This document shows, one piece after another, positions 1,156-11,476 of a DNA stretch of 64,000 nucleotides. Positions within the stretch are counted from its first letter, which is position 1, and every line of letters begins with the position of its first letter. The stretch comes from Geobacter sp. SVR (GTDB lineage: Bacteria; Desulfobacterota; Desulfuromonadia; Geobacterales; Pseudopelobacteraceae): positions 3,316,501 to 3,380,500 of the forward strand of contig NZ_AP024469.1 of assembly GCF_016865365.1 (NCBI RefSeq). The letters run 5' to 3'. A program made the position numbers and the translations under genes. Under the pieces are notes generated by a model. It had not been told where the DNA came from, searched no databases, and saw only the letters and a list, made by a program, of their open reading frames with translations.

Positions 1156-4100
1156 GTCTCTATCGCCGCCAGTCCCGGAGACTGACGGATCGACATTCTT
1201 TACAATTTTCATGGGGCTATGACCAGACGTTTCAATCCACGCCAGTCCTGGAGAACTGGCGGATCGCTGCAGAACGCCTGCGGGACGGGCGCTTTACGGT
1301 GTTCCAATCCACGTCAGTCCCGAAGAACTGACGGATCCCGGTGGGGTCGCTCCAGGTTTTGCCCATGACCAGGTTTCAATCCACGTCAGTTCCGGAGAAC
1401 TGACGGATCCGATGCCTGGATGCAGGGCTGGCGCAATCTGAAGGTTTCAATCCACGTCAGTCCCGGAGAACTGACGGATCAAATTGACGATATCTGCCTC
1501 TTCCCGCCGCTTCCTCTCTGGTTTCAATCCACGTCAGTCCCGAAGAACTGACGGATCAATACGCAGTGATGTTCGAGTCCGACCTGAACAAGTTTCAATC
1601 CACGTCAACCCCGAAGAACTGACGGATTTCGATGGGCTACACGATCCACATCCAGGACTACACCGTTTCAATCCACATCAGTTCCGGAGAACTGGCGGAT
1701 CGCCGCTTTACTTTCAGGGCGGCCAATAGTTTCTCGTTTCAATCCACGTCAGTCCCGAAGAACTAACGGATCCGCTGCAGCCGGGGGAGCGTCCGCGGGA
1801 TCTGCCTGTTTCAATCCACGTCAGTTCCGGAGAACTGACGGATCGAACCAGCGACAGGCTCGATGTGATGCCATTCAGGTTTCAATCCACGTCAGTCCCG
1901 GAGAACTGACGAATCGGAAATGGTGATGTCGCTGCTCGGGGCGTTCATGTTTCAATCCACGTCAGTTCCGGAGAACTGAGGGATCCTAACGAAATAGGTA
2001 ACAATTGGGACGTGTCACCGTTTCAATCCACGTCAGTTCCGGAGAACTGACGGATCATCATGGGCACGTATTCCTCGACCGCCACGGTCGTGTTTCAATC
2101 CACGTCAGTTCCGGAGAACTGACGGATCGCGGCATTCTGTGCGGCAGTCTCGGCGGCTGATTTGTTTCAATCCGCGTCAGTTCCGGAGAACTGACGGATC
2201 AGCCGACTGGTAACCCTGCACCGCCACGCCATTGCTGTTTCAATCCACGTCAGTTCCGGAGAACTGACGGATCCGGTGACGATATCCCCCGTGTCGTCGG
2301 TCAGGTTGGTTTCAATCCACGTCAGTCCCGAAGAACTGACGGATCGATCGGGATGCTCTGCGGCATTCTGGCCCATCATCTCGTTTCAATCCACGTCAGT
2401 CCCGAAGAACTGACGGATCGGAGCGCAAGGCCACGATGGACAGCAGGATGGATGTTTCAATCCACGTCAGTCCCGGAGAACTGACGGATCCACAGTCGGT
2501 GTCCCCGTACCTGGACGAAATCGTTTCAATCCACGTCAGTCCCGGAGAACTGACGGATCTTCGTCCAGTCCGAGGCGGCCTTGTACCCGGTCAAGTTTCA
2601 ATCCACGTCAGTCCCGGAGAACTGACGGATCAGTTTCGAGTCAAACCATCAGCACCCGCGTGCTTATAGTTTCAATCCACGTCAGTCCCGGAGAACTGAC
2701 GGATCTCCAGGTCGCAATCCTTCGAGTTGGCCCACAGGCTGTTTCAATCCACGTCAGTCCCGGAGAACTGACGGATCGGTATCTGCTTTATCGCCTTGCC
2801 AGCTTCACAGCAGTTTCAATCCACGTCAGTCCCGGAGAACTGACGGATCGGCTGATGTATAAAGTATTCCATGGCGACACCTCGTTTCAATCCACGTCAG
2901 TCCCGGAGAACTGACGGATCGACCCGAACGCCGAACCGGATGAAACCTATGATGGTGTTTCAATCCACGTCAGTCCCGGAGAACTGACGGATCAGCTTTT
3001 TCCCAATGCTCCTGGTTATGGTCAAGGTTTCAATCCACGTCAGTCCCGGAGAACTGACGGATCAACCTTCCGGTAGATTCTTTCCGGTTGCGTCCATGTT
3101 TCAATCCACGTCAGTCCCGGAGAACTGACGGATCGTTGACGGTGGGTCCGGTCACGCCATTGCCCAGGGCGTTTCAATCCACGTCAGTCCCGGAGAACTG
3201 ACGGATCAAGCTTCCATGCGTTCTTGCGCCGTTAATGGCCGTGTTTCAATCCACGTCAGTCCCGGAGAACTGACGGATCATGTTCGACAAGGTTTTGACT
3301 CACAAAGATCTGGTGTTTCAATCCACGTCAGTCCCGGAGAACTGACGGATCTGCTGTCCTTTGAAATCATAATTCCTGACTCTTTAGTTTCAATCCACGT
3401 CAGTCCCGGAGAACTGACGGATCGCAGTTGCAGGCTGACTGGCAGACGGCCAAGGAGTTTCAATCCACGTCAGTCCCGGAGAACTGACGGATCCAGCACG
3501 GCATGCGCGGTAATTCTCCGCCGAGCAGAGTTTCAATCCACGTCAGTCCCGGAGAACTGACGGATCCTGCTGCCTCGTTGGATCACTTCGACCGAGTAGT
3601 TGTTTCAATCCACGTCAGTCCCGGAGAACTGACGGATCCACCAACCTACTGCTGGATCGTACGAAGAGTCCAGTTTCAATCCACGTCAGTCCCGGAGAAC
3701 TGACGGATCTGGTTCCGCCTCATGATTGAAGATGAGGACCTCATGTTTCAATCCACGTCAGTCCCGGAGAACTGACGGATCACCAACAGCCTCTTGGAGG
3801 ATATGCCCTTCAAGGTTTCAATCCACGTCAGTCCCGGAGAACTGACGGATCGCCTGGAAGCTCTGAAAGCCTTCATAGATTCGTACTGTTTCAATCCACG
3901 CCAGTCCCGGAGAACTGGCGGATCGTTCTACCTTAATCCCTGACGCCTCTTTGATCTCTCGTTTCAATCCACGCCAGTCCCGGAGAACTGGCGGATCAAT
4001 ACATACAGGATTTCGAGGCGGATTCGGTAGTGCAGTTTCAATCCACGCCAGTCCCGGAGAACTGGCGGATCTTTAACCAGGGCCTTGATATCCGGCTTCT

Positions 4101-6963
4101 TGATCAGGTTTCAATCCACGCCAGTCCCGGAGAACTGGCGGATCGGGCGATGGGCTGTTGATGCCGATGCGGCCATAAATGTTTCAATCCACGCCAGTCC
4201 CGGAGAACTGGCGGATCCCGTCGTCATTGACTGATGGCGTCAGCAGGTAAACGTTTCAATCCACGCCAGTCCCGGAGAACTGGCGGATCGAGGCCATGGC
4301 CGTCAAAGTCACCGACATTCTCAAGTTTCAATCCACGCCAGTCCCGGAGAACTGGCGGATCGCGGGCGGTGCGGCAGGAACAGAACGGAATCGAAAGGTT
4401 TCAATCCACGCCAGTCCCGGAGAACTGGCGGATCCCGGCGGTCTGCTCGTTTTCCCTGGCGACCTCTGAGTTTCAATCCACGCCAGTCCCGGAGAACTGG
4501 CGGATCGCACTACAGACTGAATGCACTACTGACATTACATTGGTTTCAATCCACGCCAGTCCCGGAGAACTGGCGGATCTTTACCGTCACAAGGTGTCAA
4601 AATTGCAGATACCAGAGTTTCAATCCACGCCAGTCCCGGAGAACTGGCGGATCAGTCCTCTACGGGCTTTTGTCTGTGGTAGTGATGGCTGGTTTCAATC
4701 CACGCCAGTCCCGGAGAACTGGCGGATCTATATCCTACTCACAAACTGTACTTAATAGTAGACGTTTCAATCCACGCCAGTCCCGGAGAACTGGCGGATC
4801 ACGGGCCGTATTTCTTGTTGTCAACGGTTATAGTGTTTCAATCCACGCCAGTCCCGGAGAACTGGCGGATCTCCGGCAACCATGCTGCTTAACCGGACGC
4901 ACCGGAGAGTTTCAATCCACGCCAGTCCCGGAGAACTGGCGGATCGAGGGGAGGAAGAGAGAAGACCAGTAAGCAATGAAGTTTCAATCCACGCCAGTCC
5001 CGGAGAACTGGCGGATCTTATCTCCCAAAGGTGAACGGGTAGCCCCGGTGTTGTTTCAATCCACGCCAGTCCCGGAGAACTGGCGGATCCGATGTCGCCC
5101 TTGTGATCCGCCACCAGTTCGTCAAGTTTCAATCCACGCCAGTCCCGGAGAACTGGCGGATCCCGAGTACAGCAGAATGCCCATCAGGTACACCGATGTT
5201 TCAATCCACGCCAGTCCCGGAGAACTGGCGGATCGCCGAGTACAGCAGAATGCCCATCAGGTACACCGATGTTTCAATCCACGCCAGTCCCGGAGAACTG
5301 GCGGATCCTTTGACGGTATGACCTTGACCATGATTGTGCTTGTTTCAATCCACGCCAGTCCCGGAGAACTGGCGGATCCGTGGCACAAATCCCCAATGCT
5401 TTGTGTTGATTTGGTTTCAATCCACGCCAGTCCCGGAGAACTGGCGGATCGCCTGACCGCGTGTAAAAATCAGCATATGCTCATTGTTTCAATCCACGCC
5501 AGTCCCGGAGAACTGGCGGATCGCAAAAGGGGAATAGCCCATGAACCGCGATAATTTGTTTCAATCCACGCCAGTCCCGGAGAACTGGCGGATCGGGGAT
5601 CGTATTGAGACAGAACACACCGGAAACCTGTTTCAATCCACGCCAGTCCCGGAGAACTGGCGGATCCAGAGGTGATGCAGGCCCTTGATGAAGGGATAAA
5701 GTTTCAATCCACGCCAGTCCCGGAGAACTGGCGGATCGCCACACTGAAAGATGAATGCGAACGCCTACAAAAAGTTTCAATCCACGCCAGTCCCGGAGAA
5801 CTGGCGGATCATCCCTGAGAAGTGGCAGATGGACGCAGAGAAGAAGTTTCAATCCACGCCAGTCCCGGAGAACTGGCGGATCAACGAGTACACTGTTCTT
5901 TTCGGTTATACTAAGCGTTTCAATCCACGCCAGTCCCGGAGAACTGGCGGATCACTTTGCGGAGCTATGCAGTGTTCAATCATTTCTCGTTTCAATCCAC
6001 GCCAGTCCCGGAGAACTGGCGGATCCCGCCCGTCCTTATCCTCACAGGCCCCAACGTTGTTGCGGTTTCAATCCACGCCAGTCCCGGAGAACTGGCGGAT
6101 CGGCGGGGGGCAGGAGCTATCAACGGCGTTGATCGTGTTTCAATCCACGCCAGTCCCGGAGAACTGGCGGATCGGGGGTAGTTGTCCCCATGCCCTTCGG
6201 CACCGTTGTTTCAATCCACGCCAGTCCCGGAGAACTGGCGGATCGCTTGGCTCCGGGGTAAGCTGTTCACGATTATCGATGTTTCAATCCACGCCAGTCC
6301 CGGAGAACTGGCGGATCATTGCGCCGTATCCTGTGCTACCCCAGGTGGACATGTTTCAATCCACGCCAGTCCCGGAGAACTGGCGGATCGTCATACCCCC
6401 GAGTCGCCCAATACCAGAGATATTTGTTTCAATCCACGCCAGTCCCGGAGAACTGGCGGATCTCCGGTTTCCATCCGCAATGCGGGCAGGCAGGATGTTT
6501 CAATCCACGCCAGTCCCGGAGAACTGGCGGATCCGGTTCCGTGAGTATGGAAGCTCAGTTCCCTGAACTGTTTCAATCCACGCCAGTCCCGGAGAACTGG
6601 CGGATCCCCACCAACTTCTCACCGGAGGATTACCTGGAATATGTTTCAATCCACGCCAGTCCCGGAGAACTGGCGGATCGCAAGTCGTGTCGGCAGTGCT
6701 GCGGGATCCTGGTCGTTTCAATCCACGCCAGTCCCGGAGAACTGGCGGATCGCTGGACGAAGTGAAGCAGATCACCCTGGAGTGGGGTTTCAATCCACGC
6801 CAGTCCCGGAGAACTGGCGGATCGCGATCTGACCACGCGCTTGAATGTGGCTTGGCAGTTTCAATCCACGCCAGTCCCGGAGAACTGGCGGATCATGATC
6901 TCCAGCGTCTGGTCGGGGGGAAGCTGGTTTCAATCCACGCCAGTCCCGGAGAACTGGCGGATC
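1156..6963 (-). CRISPR. Type I-C CRISPR array, 81 repeats and 80 spacers
   Basis: Repeats are 37 bases and on the plus strand begin GTTTCAATCC and end GGATC; spacers are mostly 33-40 bases. Counting every unit gives 81 repeats, from a degenerate one at 1156-1191 to 6927-6963. The minus-strand reading ends ...GGATTGAAAC, the 5' handle typical of type I-C crRNA, so transcription runs from the leader at 6964-7134 toward low coordinates; degenerate units lie at the far end, as expected for the oldest. Repeats 3888-6927 carry C14 and G31; repeats 2454-3815 carry T14 and A31; repeats 1229-2383 mix further variants at positions 19 and 23. The transcribed repeat can form a 9-bp stem (positions 33-25 with 20-12) capped by UCCG. 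Spacers at 5163-5197 and 5235-5270 are near duplicates. Short open frames inside the array are artefacts of repetition. Confidence 0.99.
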
Positions 6964-7134
6964 TGCCCCCTCAAATTAGGGACAGATTACAACATGTTAC
7001 ATATGGAATTTCACGAACCGTCACTTTCGTTGTTTGAGCACGCCGCATGCCATCCCCCCACCTCCTATTTTCCCTAATGATTCCAATCATCGCGAAAGTT
7101 CCGCGTTTTTGAATGAGCACTAGGTTCGCGCGGC
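6964..7134 (-). promoter_or_regulatory. CRISPR leader
   Basis: The 171 bases between the cas2 stop and the first (newest) repeat carry no gene. Read on the minus strand they contain an inverted repeat, CGCGAA at 7130-7125 and TTCGCG at 7096-7091, around GTGCTCATTCAAAAACGCGG. This GCGCGAACC...TTTCGCG arrangement just after cas2 resembles leaders of other type I-C loci (family knowledge, not checked by alignment). The leader-proximal end is AT-richer (7030-6964). I could not pick a convincing -35/-10 pair. Confidence 0.8.
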
Positions 7135-7428
7135 TCATACCACCAACGTTTCTTCATCGAAAAACAACGTCCTGGTAGCACCATATTCCTCGACCCTCTG
7201 CTCTCTCGGTTCGGTCAGGCGATATAGCCGCAGATTGTCCAGTTCCAGCTTGACCTCTTTGAGCAATTTTTTACGCAATTGTTCGTACTTCATCTCATCC
7301 ACTTGGCACTCGAAAACTGATTTCTGCACGCGCTGGCCGAAGTTTTTACAGACTTGCGCCACCCGCCGGAGCCGTTTGCGCCCCTCCCGTGTTTCAGTAT
7401 TGACGTCATAGCAGACAACTACCCACAT
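7135..7428 (-). CDS. cas2: CRISPR-associated endonuclease Cas2
   Basis: A 97-residue Cas2 of the type I-C group, the structural partner of Cas1 in spacer integration. The N-terminus MWVVVCYDVN is the first beta strand, ending in the conserved Asp (D8). RRVAQVCKNFGQRVQKSVFEC is the usual second block (conserved K/R and F residues), and the C-terminal EEYGATR is common in I-C Cas2. The length is normal. It is the last cas gene and lies next to the leader. It starts two bases after the stop of the four-helix-bundle gene, with an AGGA site eight bases upstream of ATG 7428 lying at the end of that insertion. Its natural upstream neighbour is cas1, now about 460 bases away. Confidence 0.97.
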   Translation of the reverse strand: MWVVVCYDVNTETREGRKRLRRVAQVCKNFGQRVQKSVFECQVDEMKYEQLRKKLLKEVKLELDNLRLYRLTEPREQRVEEYGATRTLFFDEETLVV

Positions 7429-7430
7429 GG

Positions 7431-7847
7431 TTAGTGTCCTGAGTTATTGGAGTTGATAGAGTTATTGGAGTTGCTGGAGTTTGAGTGATTGCAGAGATAC
7501 CGGGAAAACGCCATGATCATTTTAGATACCTCGTCGGCCAATCGGTACAAGTCATCGAACTCGGTCGTAGCCAAATACCCCTGATCAAGCGCAACGTAGA
7601 GCGCGGATTGAACTTCCGCTGCTGAACCATGGGCAATTATGAGAAACTGACTGAACTCCCGCTTCGTTTTTCTGGCAAACCCCTCGGCAATGTTGAGCAT
7701 GATGGAGACCGCTGCCCGCCGTATCTGATCGCGCAGGCCGAAATCCCTGGTAAACGAACCAGAATTGCTGATGGAATACACATGCTTCACCAGCATCCGC
7801 GCCTTTTGCCACGCCTGAATATCCTCAAACCGCTCAATCTTAGCCAT
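7431..7847 (-). CDS. Four-helix-bundle protein (23S rRNA intervening-sequence family)
   Basis: A 138-residue protein starting [17 protein letters not shown], with [21 protein letters not shown] and [16 protein letters not shown], the hallmarks of the four-helix-bundle family first found in 23S rRNA intervening sequences. Molecular function is unknown for most members; the related Avd protein binds nucleic acid in diversity-generating retroelements. I chose ATG 7847 because a GGGGGCAG site precedes it. A longer reading to 7889 would only translate flanking repeat DNA. The last 19 residues are low-complexity Asn/Ser, encoded by the opposite flanking repeat. It lies between cas1 and cas2, where no gene is normally found in type I-C loci, and could be a passenger rather than a CRISPR component. 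Confidence 0.85.
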
Positions 7848-7888
7848 ATCTGCCCCCAACTCTATGAACTCTCTAACTCTATAACTCA
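7440..7888. repeat. Imperfect inverted GAGTT/AACTC repeats bounding the four-helix-bundle gene
   Basis: On the plus strand 7440-7488 reads TGAGTTATTGGAGTTGATAG and continues with more GAGTT units. On the other side 7858-7888 is built of AACTC units and ends CTCTATAACTCA. The two flanks are imperfect inverted copies: the far ends are TGAGTTAT and ATAACTCA. The right end touches the cas1 stop codon (TAA on the minus strand, 7891-7889), and the left end is 11 bases from the cas2 start. The 449-base unit thus looks like a cassette placed precisely between cas1 and cas2. Mobility is inferred; no transposase is present. Confidence 0.65.
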
Positions 7889-8923
7889 TTAACTATAGAC
7901 GTATGGAATGTATGCTTCCAGGTCCCCCCTCAGATGCCGGGCCAGAAGACGGGCCTGTAGATGGGGTAACAGGCCTATCGGGGTCTTTTCTGAGAGCAGA
8001 GAATGATTTGCCTCTTCCTGCTTGCGTTTCTGGTAGGCTGCCACCACCTCCTTACGCCCCTTTTCGTTCAGGTAGACCGCCCCACCCGGGCGGGGCTCAA
8101 AATGCTCGATTGTTATCTGCTTGCGATTGATGAGCGTGATCGCCAGCCGGTCTGCCAGAAACGCACGAAACTCCTCCATCAGATCCAGCCCCAGCGACGG
8201 CCGGCCCGGTCGGGGCACATGCAGAAACCCCAGTTGAGGATCGAGCCCTACCCCCTCCAGAGCGCTGATGCAGTCGTTCAACAGCAGGGTATAGAGAAAA
8301 GAGATCAATGCATTGACAGGGTCCAGCGGCGGACGGCGATTCCGGCCATTCATGGGAAGCGAATCCCGCTCCGACGGTTTCATCATCAAGGTGAAAACAT
8401 CGAAATATGCGGCGGCCGCCTCACCTTCGAGCCCGCGTATATGGTCGGTATTGCGCGGGGTCTTCAAACGGAAGAGAGCGTCAGCCAGAACATCCGCCGA
8501 CTTGCGCAACCGCCTTTCATCGTCCGGCGATGCAGCTTCGCGAGCACTGCGCATCAGCACATTGCGGGCATTCTTGACCTTGCCGGCCGTCATGGCGGCA
8601 GCAATCGCTATTGTTCGGGCATCATCCCGCACGGCATCATGCTGGGTCTGGCGCAGCAGGATATTGCCGCTGGTCTTGCCGACCATACGGCACTTGAAAC
8701 GGCCGTTGCGGTCGAGAATCACCACGGCCCGCCCGTCATCGGCGCATTTACCCAGGAAAAACGGGCTGATCATGACGTTGCCCATGGTCACTATCGAACC
8801 AAGATGATGCAACGGCATCTGAAGCCTCAGATCTCCCCCCACCTCCACCCGCACGGTTTCGTGGTCCAGCGACAGGTATGCTCCCTGGGTCATGACATAC
8901 AGCGTATTGAGGAGTTGCTTCAT
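7889..8923 (-). CDS. cas1: CRISPR-associated endonuclease Cas1, type I-C
   Basis: A 344-residue Cas1, the metal-dependent integrase of spacer acquisition. Expected active-site residues are present: Glu in [11 protein letters not shown] (about residue 166), His in [10 protein letters not shown] (about 235) and Asp in [11 protein letters not shown] (about 247). I prefer ATG 8923 because AAGGAG lies five bases upstream. The alternative GTG at 8929 gives a GTGA overlap with the cas4 stop but leaves no room for that site. Its stop codon is followed at once by the inverted-repeat cassette carrying the four-helix-bundle gene. Confidence 0.97.
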
Positions 8924-8925
8924 GA

Positions 8926-9543
8926 TCACTCCTTTTCAAAGAGTTTGGCGGCTGTCCGGTGAAAGCGCTGCCGCTCGGCCACCACGGTGGGCAGGCACGA
9001 TTCGCGGAGCGAGCAGTGCTCACATCGTTGATCATTCACCGGAGACGGGGTAATGCGTTGTTCCAGCATCCCACGCACCGATGCCGTCACCCCCTCCACC
9101 TGTCCTCGCATGGCATCCGTGAACACGATCTCCCGGCGTTCACGCGAAGCGTGCCAGAAGATAGCACCGGCGGATACCGGCACGCCGAACATCTCCTCCA
9201 GGCACATGGCTTGGGCACAGAGCTGCAACGTTTCCGGCGCGCCCCGTTTGCGACGGCCCGATTTGTACTCCACCGGGTAGGGAATATCATCATGGAATTC
9301 AACCAAGTCTGCCTTACCGACAAGACTCAGCTTGCTACACCAGATGGGAAGCGCCCGCTCATAGCGGACGCCTCCCACATCATGTCCCGAGATTTCGTCC
9401 ACCCGCTCGTGCACATCCCGGCCGCGCATGGTGTACAGGTTTTCATCCCACACCTGCTCCACATGGATCAGCGCGCACTGGCGCGGGCAGTAGGCGTAAT
9501 GTTCCAAGGCAGAAATGGGGATGGGGTCGGTGGGATCAGCCAT
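8926..9543 (-). CDS. cas4: CRISPR-associated exonuclease Cas4
   Basis: A 205-residue Cas4 of the RecB nuclease type with an iron-sulfur cluster; it trims prespacers and helps choose those with a correct PAM. Visible features: N-terminal Cys in YCPRQCALIH (C19, C23), nuclease residues in VGKADLVEF and YPVEYKSGR (Asp, Glu, Lys), a Gln in ETLQLCAQA, and the C-terminal cysteine group RCEHCSLRESC. The length is normal for the family. The first eight bases overlap the 3' end of the rhuM-like gene, so translation of the two is probably coupled. Confidence 0.96.
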   Translation of the reverse strand: MADPTDPIPISALEHYAYCPRQCALIHVEQVWDENLYTMRGRDVHERVDEISGHDVGGVRYERALPIWCSKLSLVGKADLVEFHDDIPYPVEYKSGRRKRGAPETLQLCAQAMCLEEMFGVPVSAGAIFWHASRERREIVFTDAMRGQVEGVTASVRGMLEQRITPSPVNDQRCEHCSLRESCLPTVVAERQRFHRTAAKLFEKE

Positions 9544-10561
9544 TCTTTTTCCCTTTCCGGTTTGATTCGATCTGCTTCACCGCTTCCAGGAAATCCCGTT
9601 CCGCACGGGATGGCTCCTTCAACTGTTCCCGTCGGTACCGTTCATACTCGGCATGGGCCTTTGACACTGCCTCCTCATGACTGACTCTGCCGGAGTGGAT
9701 CAGAATATCCCGGCCGGAAAGTTTCAGAAAATCATCCAGCTTGGCTATCCAATCGAGCATGTACATCGGCCTACGGGAAAGTGCCTGCAATTCGGCGAAT
9801 TCCAGGTACGAGTTCACAATCCTGTTGAGGACGTCCAGTTCCTGCTGGTCAAGATAGTTTTTAGCCACCACGGCATCGGCCTTACGCGGCGTATCGCCTT
9901 CCCACACAGTAAGTCCCATATTGGGCTTGGCGGCATCGGCACGACCGTGGATAATCTCGGCGGCGGTCTGTCCGTGGGTGGCCCAGTGCATCTTGTTCTG
10001 GATGGTGGCGAAGAACTGGTGCGACGCATCGGCAGAGGGATCGTAATCGATGCTGGTGACGTAAATGTCCAGCACCTTTCGCCAGAAGACCTTTTCAGAC
10101 GAGCGGATGTCGCGGATACGGGCCAGCAGCTCATCAAAGTAGTTGCCACCTCCGCCCCGCTTCAGCCGCTCGTCGTCCATGGCAAAACCCTTGATGATGT
10201 ACTCCCGCAACCGCTGGGTGGCCCAGATACGGAACTGGGTGCCGCGCAGGCTATTGACCCGGTAACCGACGGATATGATGGCATCGAGGTTATAGTGATC
10301 TACTTGATAGGTCTTGCCGTCGGCGGCAGTTGTTGCAAAATTTGCAACAACTGACTCTGCCTGTAATTCTCCGGTATCGAAGATGTTTTTCAGGTGACGG
10401 CTGATGCCGGATTTATCCACCTGAAACAGCTCGGCCATTTGATTGAGCGACAGCCAGACTGTTTCATCCCGGAGCCGTACCTCAATTTTGGTGTTCCCGT
10501 CCTCGGTCTGGTAGAGGAGGAAGTCGCCGGGGGGGGGAGTAAGGTTTTTCTGTTTTTTCAT
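9536..10561 (-). CDS. RhuM-family protein embedded in the cas operon
   Basis: A 341-residue protein of the RhuM (virulence protein) family. The N-terminal part looks like a DNA-binding helical domain (VWLSLNQMAELFQVDKSGIS followed by RHLKNIF), then the family blocks YNLDAIISVGYRVNS and FRIWATQRLREYIIKGF. The middle region contains FFATIQNKMHWA and TAAEIIHGRADA. The C-terminal fifth is charged and Lys-rich. RhuM genes are frequent in defence and mobile islands, often near restriction-modification genes, but their biochemical function is not established. Here the gene lies between cas7 and cas4, in the operon direction, and overlaps cas4 by eight bases. That suggests co-expression with the CRISPR genes, or a passenger that landed neatly in the operon. 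Confidence 0.88.
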   Translation of the reverse strand: MKKQKNLTPPPGDFLLYQTEDGNTKIEVRLRDETVWLSLNQMAELFQVDKSGISRHLKNIFDTGELQAESVVANFATTAADGKTYQVDHYNLDAIISVGYRVNSLRGTQFRIWATQRLREYIIKGFAMDDERLKRGGGGNYFDELLARIRDIRSSEKVFWRKVLDIYVTSIDYDPSADASHQFFATIQNKMHWATHGQTAAEIIHGRADAAKPNMGLTVWEGDTPRKADAVVAKNYLDQQELDVLNRIVNSYLEFAELQALSRRPMYMLDWIAKLDDFLKLSGRDILIHSGRVSHEEAVSKAHAEYERYRREQLKEPSRAERDFLEAVKQIESNRKGKKNG

Positions 10562-10577
10562 GTTGGGGCCTTTGGTG

Positions 10578-10601
10578 GGGCGGCCATGGCAGAGGCCGCC
10601 C
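10578..10601 (-). other. Hairpin between cas7 and the rhuM-like gene
   Basis: GGGCGGCC at 10578-10585 pairs perfectly with GGCCGCCC at 10594-10601 around an 8-base loop, in the 54-base gap between the cas7 stop and the rhuM start. There is no U-run after the stem on the minus strand, so it is not a standard terminator. It may modulate mRNA stability or partial read-through between the interference genes and the downstream genes. Confidence 0.5.
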
Positions 10602-10615
10602 GTGCTGATTTCGGA

Positions 10616-11476
10616 TTACAATTTCTCGATAATTTCCACTCCTTCAGGTGCCGCACCAATAGTGACGACGTAATCCTTGAAGGAACGCGCGGGACCTTCC
10701 GAGCCATTCTTGCGCGTGATATCGATCAGCTCAAAAAGCTTGTGGGCCGGAGCGTTACCGAGCTTATCCCGGTGTTTGAAAACATAAAGTTTCTGACTGC
10801 TCATCATTCCACGGGCGGCCGAGCGGTCATGCTCGAACATATTGATCAATGCATTCCAGAGCAAGTCCAAATCCGCTTCACCAAAACCGGTTCTTTCCGC
10901 CAGCGATGCGGAGACAAAGCCGTGGGCCACATATAGACCGTACGGGACGATGTGCTTGCGCCCCATGGTTCTCTCTTTTTCCAGATCCCTCTCGTTGGTC
11001 ACCGCCATGCGGGTGATGCTGACTTCCTGCGACATGATCGGCTCGATACTCTTGGAGAACGCCAACTGCACCGGCCCGCGCACCTGCCCACAATTCACCT
11101 CCGTGGTCATGACCGCGCCAAAGCTGCGGATATCGTAAAAGTTCGCGCACATCCAGCCGGTGACGTTCCGGGCATCCGCCTCGGACTTGGGCAGCTTCTT
11201 GGCTTCAGGTTTCAGTTCAAATGCCTTGTAAGCCATCTCGTTGGTCTGGTTGAGCACCGACTTTTCCTGCACGTAAATATTGAAGCCTTCGGCCCCTTCC
11301 TTGGTGAGCGCCACATGATTGCGGATTTTCCGTTTCAGGCAGACATCGGTCACCAAGCCATGGCCGGTTTCGGGATCGACGCGCGGCATGTTGCCAGCAT
11401 CGGGGTCGCCGTTGGGGTTGCCGTTTTGGACATCGAACAACAGAGCAAATTCGTAACGATTGGCGATAGCAGTCAT
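10616..11476 (-). CDS. cas7: CRISPR-associated protein Cas7 (Csd2), type I-C
   Basis: A 286-residue Cas7 of the I-C subtype, which coats the crRNA along the Cascade backbone. The N-terminus [20 protein letters not shown], with [20 protein letters not shown] just after it, is the diagnostic RRM-like start of Csd2. [17 protein letters not shown] and ITRMAVT are further conserved blocks, and [19 protein letters not shown] is the late one. It starts three bases after the cas8c stop (with GAGG a few bases upstream), matching the standard I-C order cas5-cas8c-cas7. Confidence 0.97.

Follow-up and report, generated by a model that had tools for sequence, protein, structure and literature searches.

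The type I-C CRISPR-cas operon of Geobacter sp. SVR carries a small four-helix-bundle gene between cas1 and cas2, and the question raised by this locus is whether the gene assists the adaptation genes on either side of it or is a passenger among them. Proteins of its family (S23p/IVP) are mostly known as curiosities found within ribosomal RNA genes. We analyzed the locus within a stretch of 64,000 nucleotides (the window), together with loci from relatives and from a wider collection of genomes, and consider it probable that the feature is a selfish cassette akin to the intervening sequences (IVS) of 23S rRNA genes and that one of its lineages has been maintained in CRISPR loci. The tie of this lineage to CRISPR loci is much stronger than the window sequence alone could reveal.

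On the minus strand of the window the genes run csd2/cas7, RhuM-family gene, cas4, cas1, four-helix-bundle gene and cas2, followed by the CRISPR array (Table 1); cas1 is assigned to type I-C by TIGR03640 (491 bits). The open frame of the four-helix-bundle gene spans 7431-7889, and its family-consistent start is the ATG at 7847 (MAKIERF...), preceded by a GGGGG stretch; the part of the frame upstream of this ATG is repeat sequence. The cas1 stop codon occupies 7889-7891, the cas2 ATG lies two bases past the stop codon of the four-helix-bundle gene, and the cassette extends over about 7431-7888. When 6900-9700 was searched for known RNA families, the sole match was a sub-threshold CRISPR repeat. 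Within 1229-6963 the CRISPR repeat itself shifts from CGTCAG..CTGACG to CGCCAG..CTGGCG near 3870, both sides of the stem changing in step.

Table 1. Features of the type I-C operon and of the cassette, in window coordinates
Feature	Position	Strand	Remarks
csd2/cas7, type I-C	10616..11476	-	context
RhuM-family gene	9536..10561	-	between csd2/cas7 and cas4; context, outside cassette
cas4	8926..9543	-	context
cas1, type I-C	7889..8929	-	start 8929 or 8923; frame intact
four-helix-bundle gene (PF05635/TIGR02436)	7431..7847	-	138 aa; tail from 3' arm
3' arm (relative to gene)	7441..7481		five GAGTT units on + strand, 9-nt spacing
5' arm	7858..7888		four AACTC units on + strand, 8-9 nt spacing
cas2	7135..7428	-	frame intact
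CRISPR array	1229..6963		period about 72 nt; context

Read on the gene's own strand, the 5' arm is made of GAGTT and the 3' arm of AACTC, the latter overlapping the 3' end of the reading frame. The original prediction, that inverted GAGTT/AACTC repeats bound the gene and are translated into the tail of the protein, agrees with what we find: the right array (four units, 7858-7887) begins directly after the cas1 stop codon and the left array encodes the tail. The repeats, described there as imperfect inverted ones, are facing tandem arrays and not single repeats. These arrays are far above chance. When up to three mismatches are allowed, GAGTTNNNGGAGTTNNNNGAGTT has five matches, every one of them in the left array, against 0.36 expected; three consecutive perfect units occur at a single place in the 4.72-Mb genome, and apart from the two arms no 46-nt stretch in the 64-kb window holds four or more GAGTT or AACTC. 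At another PF05635 match of the same genome (L001, C1:3628770) facing GGGGACT-like heptamers surround the gene, and at a third (L003, C1:462778), a weak match, GGAC-type facing repeats stand on one side.

The window protein matches PF05635 with 125.3 bits (cut-off 33.8) and the TIGR02436 family 'four helix bundle protein' with 114.5 bits (cut-off 24). PF05635 is its sole Pfam match, it has no transposase domain, and we know of no transposase-like activity in the PF05635 family. An AlphaFold2 model was obtained with a pLDDT of 89.5, most of the repeat-encoded tail being at low confidence, and its comparison with the solved relative XCC0516 (PDB ID: 2gsc; E 4e-7, query-normalised TM 0.77) identifies a four-helix bundle. 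The query-normalised TM is 0.70 for 2rld and 0.67 for Avd of diversity-generating retroelements (DGR; 4dwl), which is more distant than 2gsc and 2rld; among further matches are chains from 8ub7 and 8ube, two entries of the DGR ribonucleoprotein. The modelled fold is predicted to be that of the DGR protein Avd, at a sequence identity to Avd chains of only 10-12%; unlike in a DGR, no reverse transcriptase was found among the six operon genes scanned (7135 to 11476). Homology of Avd with PF05635 is noted in a passage of PMC10053308, and a passage of PMC4990558 assigns S23p/IVP proteins no known function. The protein would serve the element rather than its host; its likely role would be to bind the hairpin, or the RNA made from it, by analogy with Avd as part of the DGR ribonucleoprotein.

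The arms are not a peculiarity of the window; the facing-arm arrangement is general in the family. PF05635 matches are present in 144 of 192 genomes of relatives. From 135 unique domains we kept 127 full-length genes (8 partial ones were dropped), and removal of two with short flanks or flanks containing N left 125 usable genes, for each of which the 5' flank was compared with the reverse complement of its own 3' flank. At a threshold score of 12, 104 of the 125 pass; the share is 4.4% among 1,240 permuted pairs and 1.3% among 625 random brackets from the same loci. Flanks also match in direct orientation at 41 of the 125 genes, partly because some loci have whole hairpins or long arrays on one side. 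A wider set was drawn from a collection with one genome per species, as the best 80 of at least 415 confirmed loci, in phyla that include Nitrospirota, Chloroflexota, Planctomycetota, Acidobacteriota, Bacteroidota and Verrucomicrobiota. Four of these were dropped (L217 and L222 as redundant, L212 and L219 for short or N-containing flanks), and 58 of the remaining 76 reach this threshold, whereas permuted pairs do so in 7.7% of cases and the 608 random brackets in 1.3%. Because permuted pairs seldom match, the repeat word must differ between loci.

Strongly periodic stretches occur in 136 of 250 flanks and in none of the shuffled flanks; the period is 7 in 95 of the 136 and 14 in 12, and of 104 5' arms, 82 consist of at least 60% purines. 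We then tested 5' arms against 3' arms from different loci, a comparison in which shared flanking DNA should not match. Word sharing rises with protein identity, from 3.5% of pairs at 30-40% through 7.1% (40-50%), 10.7% (50-60%) and 21% (60-70%) to 58% at 70-80% and 87% at 80-90% identity, the top bins being partly fed by orthologues at one site. This rise argues that gene and arms evolve as one element. GAGTT and AACTC flank all 13 rows (nine distinct loci, some represented twice) that are at least 70% identical to the window protein. At five loci (L128, L148, L166, L182 and L196) one word recurs kilobases from the gene as well as beside it, which looks like local spreading.

Such data can be set against the reading that this is an ordinary, immobile host gene, bordered on each side by slippage-prone repeats or by terminators and next to CRISPR genes by chance, which we regard as very unlikely. 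In its favour, short tandem arrays are also found elsewhere in the same neighbourhoods (0.18 per kb), so that the arms are not exclusive to the gene, and a passage of PMC4692102 describes facing heptamer pairs with the word GGGAATC in Xanthomonas, 70 and 75 in two genomes, without this gene. Against it, the arrays are denser close to the gene (1.20 per kb at distances up to 250 nt), a locus-private word is common to both sides and tracks the protein, empty sites exist in close relatives, and, as described below, most lineage members listed adjoin cas1. A selfish cassette accounts for these features if one gene for an Avd-like four-helix-bundle protein and its facing short-tandem-repeat arms are inherited and spread as a unit. 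Both neighbours are co-directional with the gene at 75 of 111 relatives' loci and at 46 of 68 in the wider set (from the best 80 of at least 415), whereas the control, other small genes in the stretches from relatives, gives 80 of 186 (Fisher p = 4e-5 and 6e-4), genes being called crudely from open frames for these counts. On this reading the cassette lands between operon genes, mostly in their direction; at those cas sites that were examined it abuts the end of the upstream frame, and so does little harm.

The window lineage is tied to CRISPR loci. Among the matches listed from 277 genomes of the class, seven proteins are at least 70% identical to that of the window, itself included, and two broken copies (G102 and G123) bring the lineage to nine members. 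Eight of these nine adjoin cas1, in four arrangements: three lie between cas1 and cas2 and three between cas4 and cas1 of I-C loci, and two are in I-E loci, where the order is cas1e, gene, cas2e in G025 and the gene precedes cas1e in G098 (Cas2e of both confirmed by PF09707). The exception, G126, has an arm period of 8 rather than 9. Of the 150 PF05635 places listed, seven are lineage members, and by eye none of the other 143 was near a listed Cas1 place. The tie extends to Nitrospirota MAGs, two of which (L204 and L208) have the order cas5e, gene, Bro-N gene, cas1e and a third (L207, type I-C) cas4, gene, cas1, cas2; in Planctomycetota, somewhat more distant genes lie directly before another cas1 (L212, and L221 of Kuenenia).

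We scanned 194 loci from both sets with 16 query proteins and for CRISPR-like arrays, over flanks of 1.5-6 kb or up to the contig end. Cas genes were found only at lineage loci, at L212 and L221, and at L071, L073 and L076. These last three, I-C loci from two other families of the class, have a distant PF05635 gene (35-37% identity) upstream of cas4; the flanks of this gene score 6 to 8, below the arm threshold of 12, and the three loci entered the relatives' set through a Cas1 search, which biases that set to cas neighbours. When 70 proteins were placed on a tree, 11 rows formed a clade (support 96/78) that contains ten rows labelled CRISPR-linked, nine of them with cas genes found, and I-C loci, I-E loci and differing positions are intermixed within it; L212 is absent from the tree because it was dropped for its short or N-containing flanks. 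L209 has a Bro-N piece and no cas gene was found there; a Cas9-like frame start at the contig end beyond it proved to be a 27-residue stretch without a Pfam match, and L209 is therefore counted among the ten as probable only. A CRISPR-like array called by script at L259 was rejected by eye, its repeats not being of the CRISPR kind. At L275 a PF05635 gene that does not belong to the main lineage has a CRISPR-like array (13-650, nine copies, period about 75 nt) some 0.35 kb upstream.

GAGTT hairpins without the gene, mostly with short loops, were found at L027, L029, L030, L033, L034, L035, L037, L038 and L041; as L034 and L038 represent the same site in different genomes, the nine hairpins make up eight sites. 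No cas genes were found near any of the nine in the flanks examined, so the difference in cas adjacency between lineage members (8/9, among the matches listed) and gene-less hairpins (0/9) is significant (Fisher p = 4e-4), and the CRISPR tie goes with the gene. The strength of the tie among the matches listed exceeds what a neutral hitchhiker would need and, together with hairpins that lie away from cas genes, weakens a pure hot-spot reading. The idea that gene-less hairpins need a resident gene of the GAGTT lineage was discarded, since several hairpin-bearing genomes showed no lineage member. We suggest that the GAGTT-arm lineage, mostly with 9-nt spacing, lives mainly in CRISPR-cas loci and crosses between I-C and I-E, between positions and between at least two phyla, CRISPR loci being mainly permissive and frequently transferred vehicles for it.

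A tie of this kind would also be expected if the lineage were a CRISPR accessory, that is, an adaptation helper or regulator, such as an easily lost Avd-like chaperone for Cas1-Cas2 substrates. The adjacency to cas1 in both I-C and I-E loci (eight of nine class members, among the matches listed), the nine of 11 clade rows with cas genes, three of them in Nitrospirota MAGs, the position of the examined gene-less hairpins away from cas genes and the strong purifying selection described below all agree with this proposal, as does the legend of Fig. 6 in PMC10910872, which lists '23S rRNA IVP' among the associations of CRISPR adaptation modules. We nevertheless hold it to be unlikely, if the least unlikely of the rivals, on account of how sparsely the sites are occupied and how often the copies are broken; moreover, most of the family members examined lie away from CRISPR and have the same kind of arms.

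Occupancy was assessed in 47 distinct I-C loci (L071-L120 minus three duplicates, the window included), 45 of which show both cas1 and cas2. The gene lies between cas1 and cas2 in three of the 45 (the window, G027 and G067); in 34 the gap is 50 nt or less, and in eight it measures 66-351 nt without the gene, hairpins of an AAATCCCCC type being present in most of the eight. Three other I-C loci carry the lineage between cas4 and cas1, as an intact gene (G128), a frameshifted one (G102) and a 3'-deleted remnant (G123), and all six I-C copies have GAGTT arms, of which the remnant keeps only the 5' one. The lineage is thus present in the adaptation region of six of 47 loci, or in nine of 47 if the distant genes upstream of cas4 are counted, at three positions, and its presence is not conserved with the adaptation genes. 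On a tree of 46 I-C Cas1 proteins occupancy needs at least eight changes, which means that occupied and empty loci are interspersed. The comparison with empty junctions bears out the cassette-like behaviour that had been predicted: few cas1/cas2 sites are occupied, cas1 and cas2 reach their usual ends where they are, and a gene conserved without the repeats in many I-C loci was not found among the loci compared. The notion of a recent insertion is not supported; G000 and G027 share the insertion point, and the lineage has been under long-term purifying selection.

In most of the empty cas4/cas1 sites inspected, GAGGT stands ahead of the cas1 ATG. In G128 and G123 the cassette begins within this motif and provides the cas4 stop codon, and at all three occupied sites AAGGA stands ahead of the cas1 ATG (AAAGGA in G123). 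Since the cas4 of G128 matches in two frames, the operon of G128 may be damaged. It is plausible, as had been proposed, that the ribosome site of cas2 is supplied by the cassette; in the window, either the cassette or an old linker could be the source of the AGGA that lies upstream of cas2.

The same sites speak to a further explanation, that the cassette is a silencer or counter-defence device whose hairpins and protein lower the expression or activity of the adaptation genes, favouring mobile DNA that carries or tolerates it. We regard this as improbable, to about the same degree as an ordinary host gene. The cassette does lie inside cas operons, its facing arms can pair in the transcript and the original ribosome-site region between cas4 and cas1 is disrupted, but AAGGA precedes the downstream gene at the three occupied cas4/cas1 sites, and the cas1 and cas2 frames of the window are intact. 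Carriage by phages was rejected for want of a match in 50,697 phage records, and carriage by plasmids because the 22 plasmid records that match all do so at less than 60% identity.

The lineage is under strong purifying selection while single copies often die. Lineage pairs have dN/dS of 0.06-0.11, with dS near saturation and many pairs beyond it. Five of the 13 known members are broken (four of nine in the class, among the matches listed), by premature stops in G027, G067 and L209, a frameshift in G102 and a deletion in G123; several of these copies are on MAG contigs, where single stops could be sequencing errors, although the deletion in G123 could not. Among the matches listed, stops are found in two of seven lineage members compared with two of 143 other PF05635 places (p 0.011). 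The three premature stops (L116, L117/L205 and L209) all coincide with glutamate positions, and two share an alignment column. The combination of purifying selection and frequent death of copies is the pattern of a selfish element, and broken copies with shifting positions favour a passenger over an adaptation component. A single copy in an operon would then be dispensable, and often decaying.

The predicted fold of the cassette RNA pairs the two arms, only modestly better than shuffles do (z -1.56). Selection for pairing in the sense RNA should make G.U pairs more frequent than A.C mismatches; they number 101 against 134 in the relatives and 73 against 79 in the wider set (from the best 80 of at least 415), and these counts give no support to RNA-level selection on arm pairing. 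We therefore do not claim an excised RNA stem, and the complementarity of the arms is better explained at the DNA level, where it could have come, for instance, from inverted duplication or from copying between the arms. No target-site duplication was found when occupied and empty junctions were compared, the relatives being too distant to define the ends to the base, and no strain-level presence/absence pair, jump or transposition intermediate was seen among the loci compared. Mobility of the cassette is what we infer.

Among known systems, REP/RAYT and MITEs have facing, hairpin-forming repeats that flank a gene, with gene-less repeat copies elsewhere. The cassette resembles them in its facing repeats and in the gene-less GAGTT hairpins found elsewhere; it differs from REP/RAYT and from IS/MITE in that its gene has no transposase domain and its repeat words vary by locus. 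Short tandem heptamer repeats are also known from cyanobacteria as STRR. Heptamer direct repeats occur in Beggiatoaceae, Cyanobacteria, including Nostoc, and Bacteroidetes according to a passage of PMC4679880, and these, like the Xanthomonas pairs, share with the cassette arms the form of intergenic tandem heptamers, but the terms S23, four helix and intervening are absent from PMC4692102 and PMC4679880. The closest likeness is to the 23S rRNA IVS of Coxiella and Leptospira, in which a single ORF of the same protein family lies between inverted repeats able to pair. As described in part of PMC4990558, the Coxiella IVS is a decaying S23p ORF within a stem, with tandem heptamers upstream of the start codon, and is excised by RNase III. 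The window cassette differs in lying between cas1 and cas2, not inside a 23S rRNA gene, and arms of its type are tandem arrays on both sides with locus-private words. The listing of IVP in PMC10910872 concerns the same family, and the passages of its text that deal with it contain nothing on arms, lineage, decay or shifts of position. In the open-access literature searched, we found no paper linking S23p/IVP genes to private inverted tandem arms or to a lineage that dwells in CRISPR loci.

If a selfish cassette is the right reading, the ribosomal IVS are special cases of a common cassette with locus-private hairpin arms that sits in operons of many phyla, and an association of IVP with CRISPR adaptation that was listed but left unexplained becomes a testable question, namely whether the protein is a helper or a selfish lodger. 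Direct experiments could build on the repeat word, on the insertion point and on the link with cas1. A bolder view, which we entertain only as a long shot, would make PF05635 genes with private arms a large, multi-phylum mobile class without a recognised transposase, one lineage of which is bound to CRISPR through cooperation of its Avd-like protein with the Cas1-Cas2 integrase; the cassette would then be moved by Cas1-Cas2, or else the protein would tune spacer capture.

The I-C loci hold other sequences of note at the same places. Hairpin ends like AAATCCCCC..GGGGGATTT lie in the gap between cas1 and cas2 of L080, L100, L105, L106, L107, L112 and L114, and the hairpin of L106 encloses an open frame (1310-1579, minus strand) whose last 74 residues match DUF559 (PF04480). 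In 26 of the 47 loci a Bro-N (14) or RhuM (12) match, partial matches counted, was found near cas4 or cas1.
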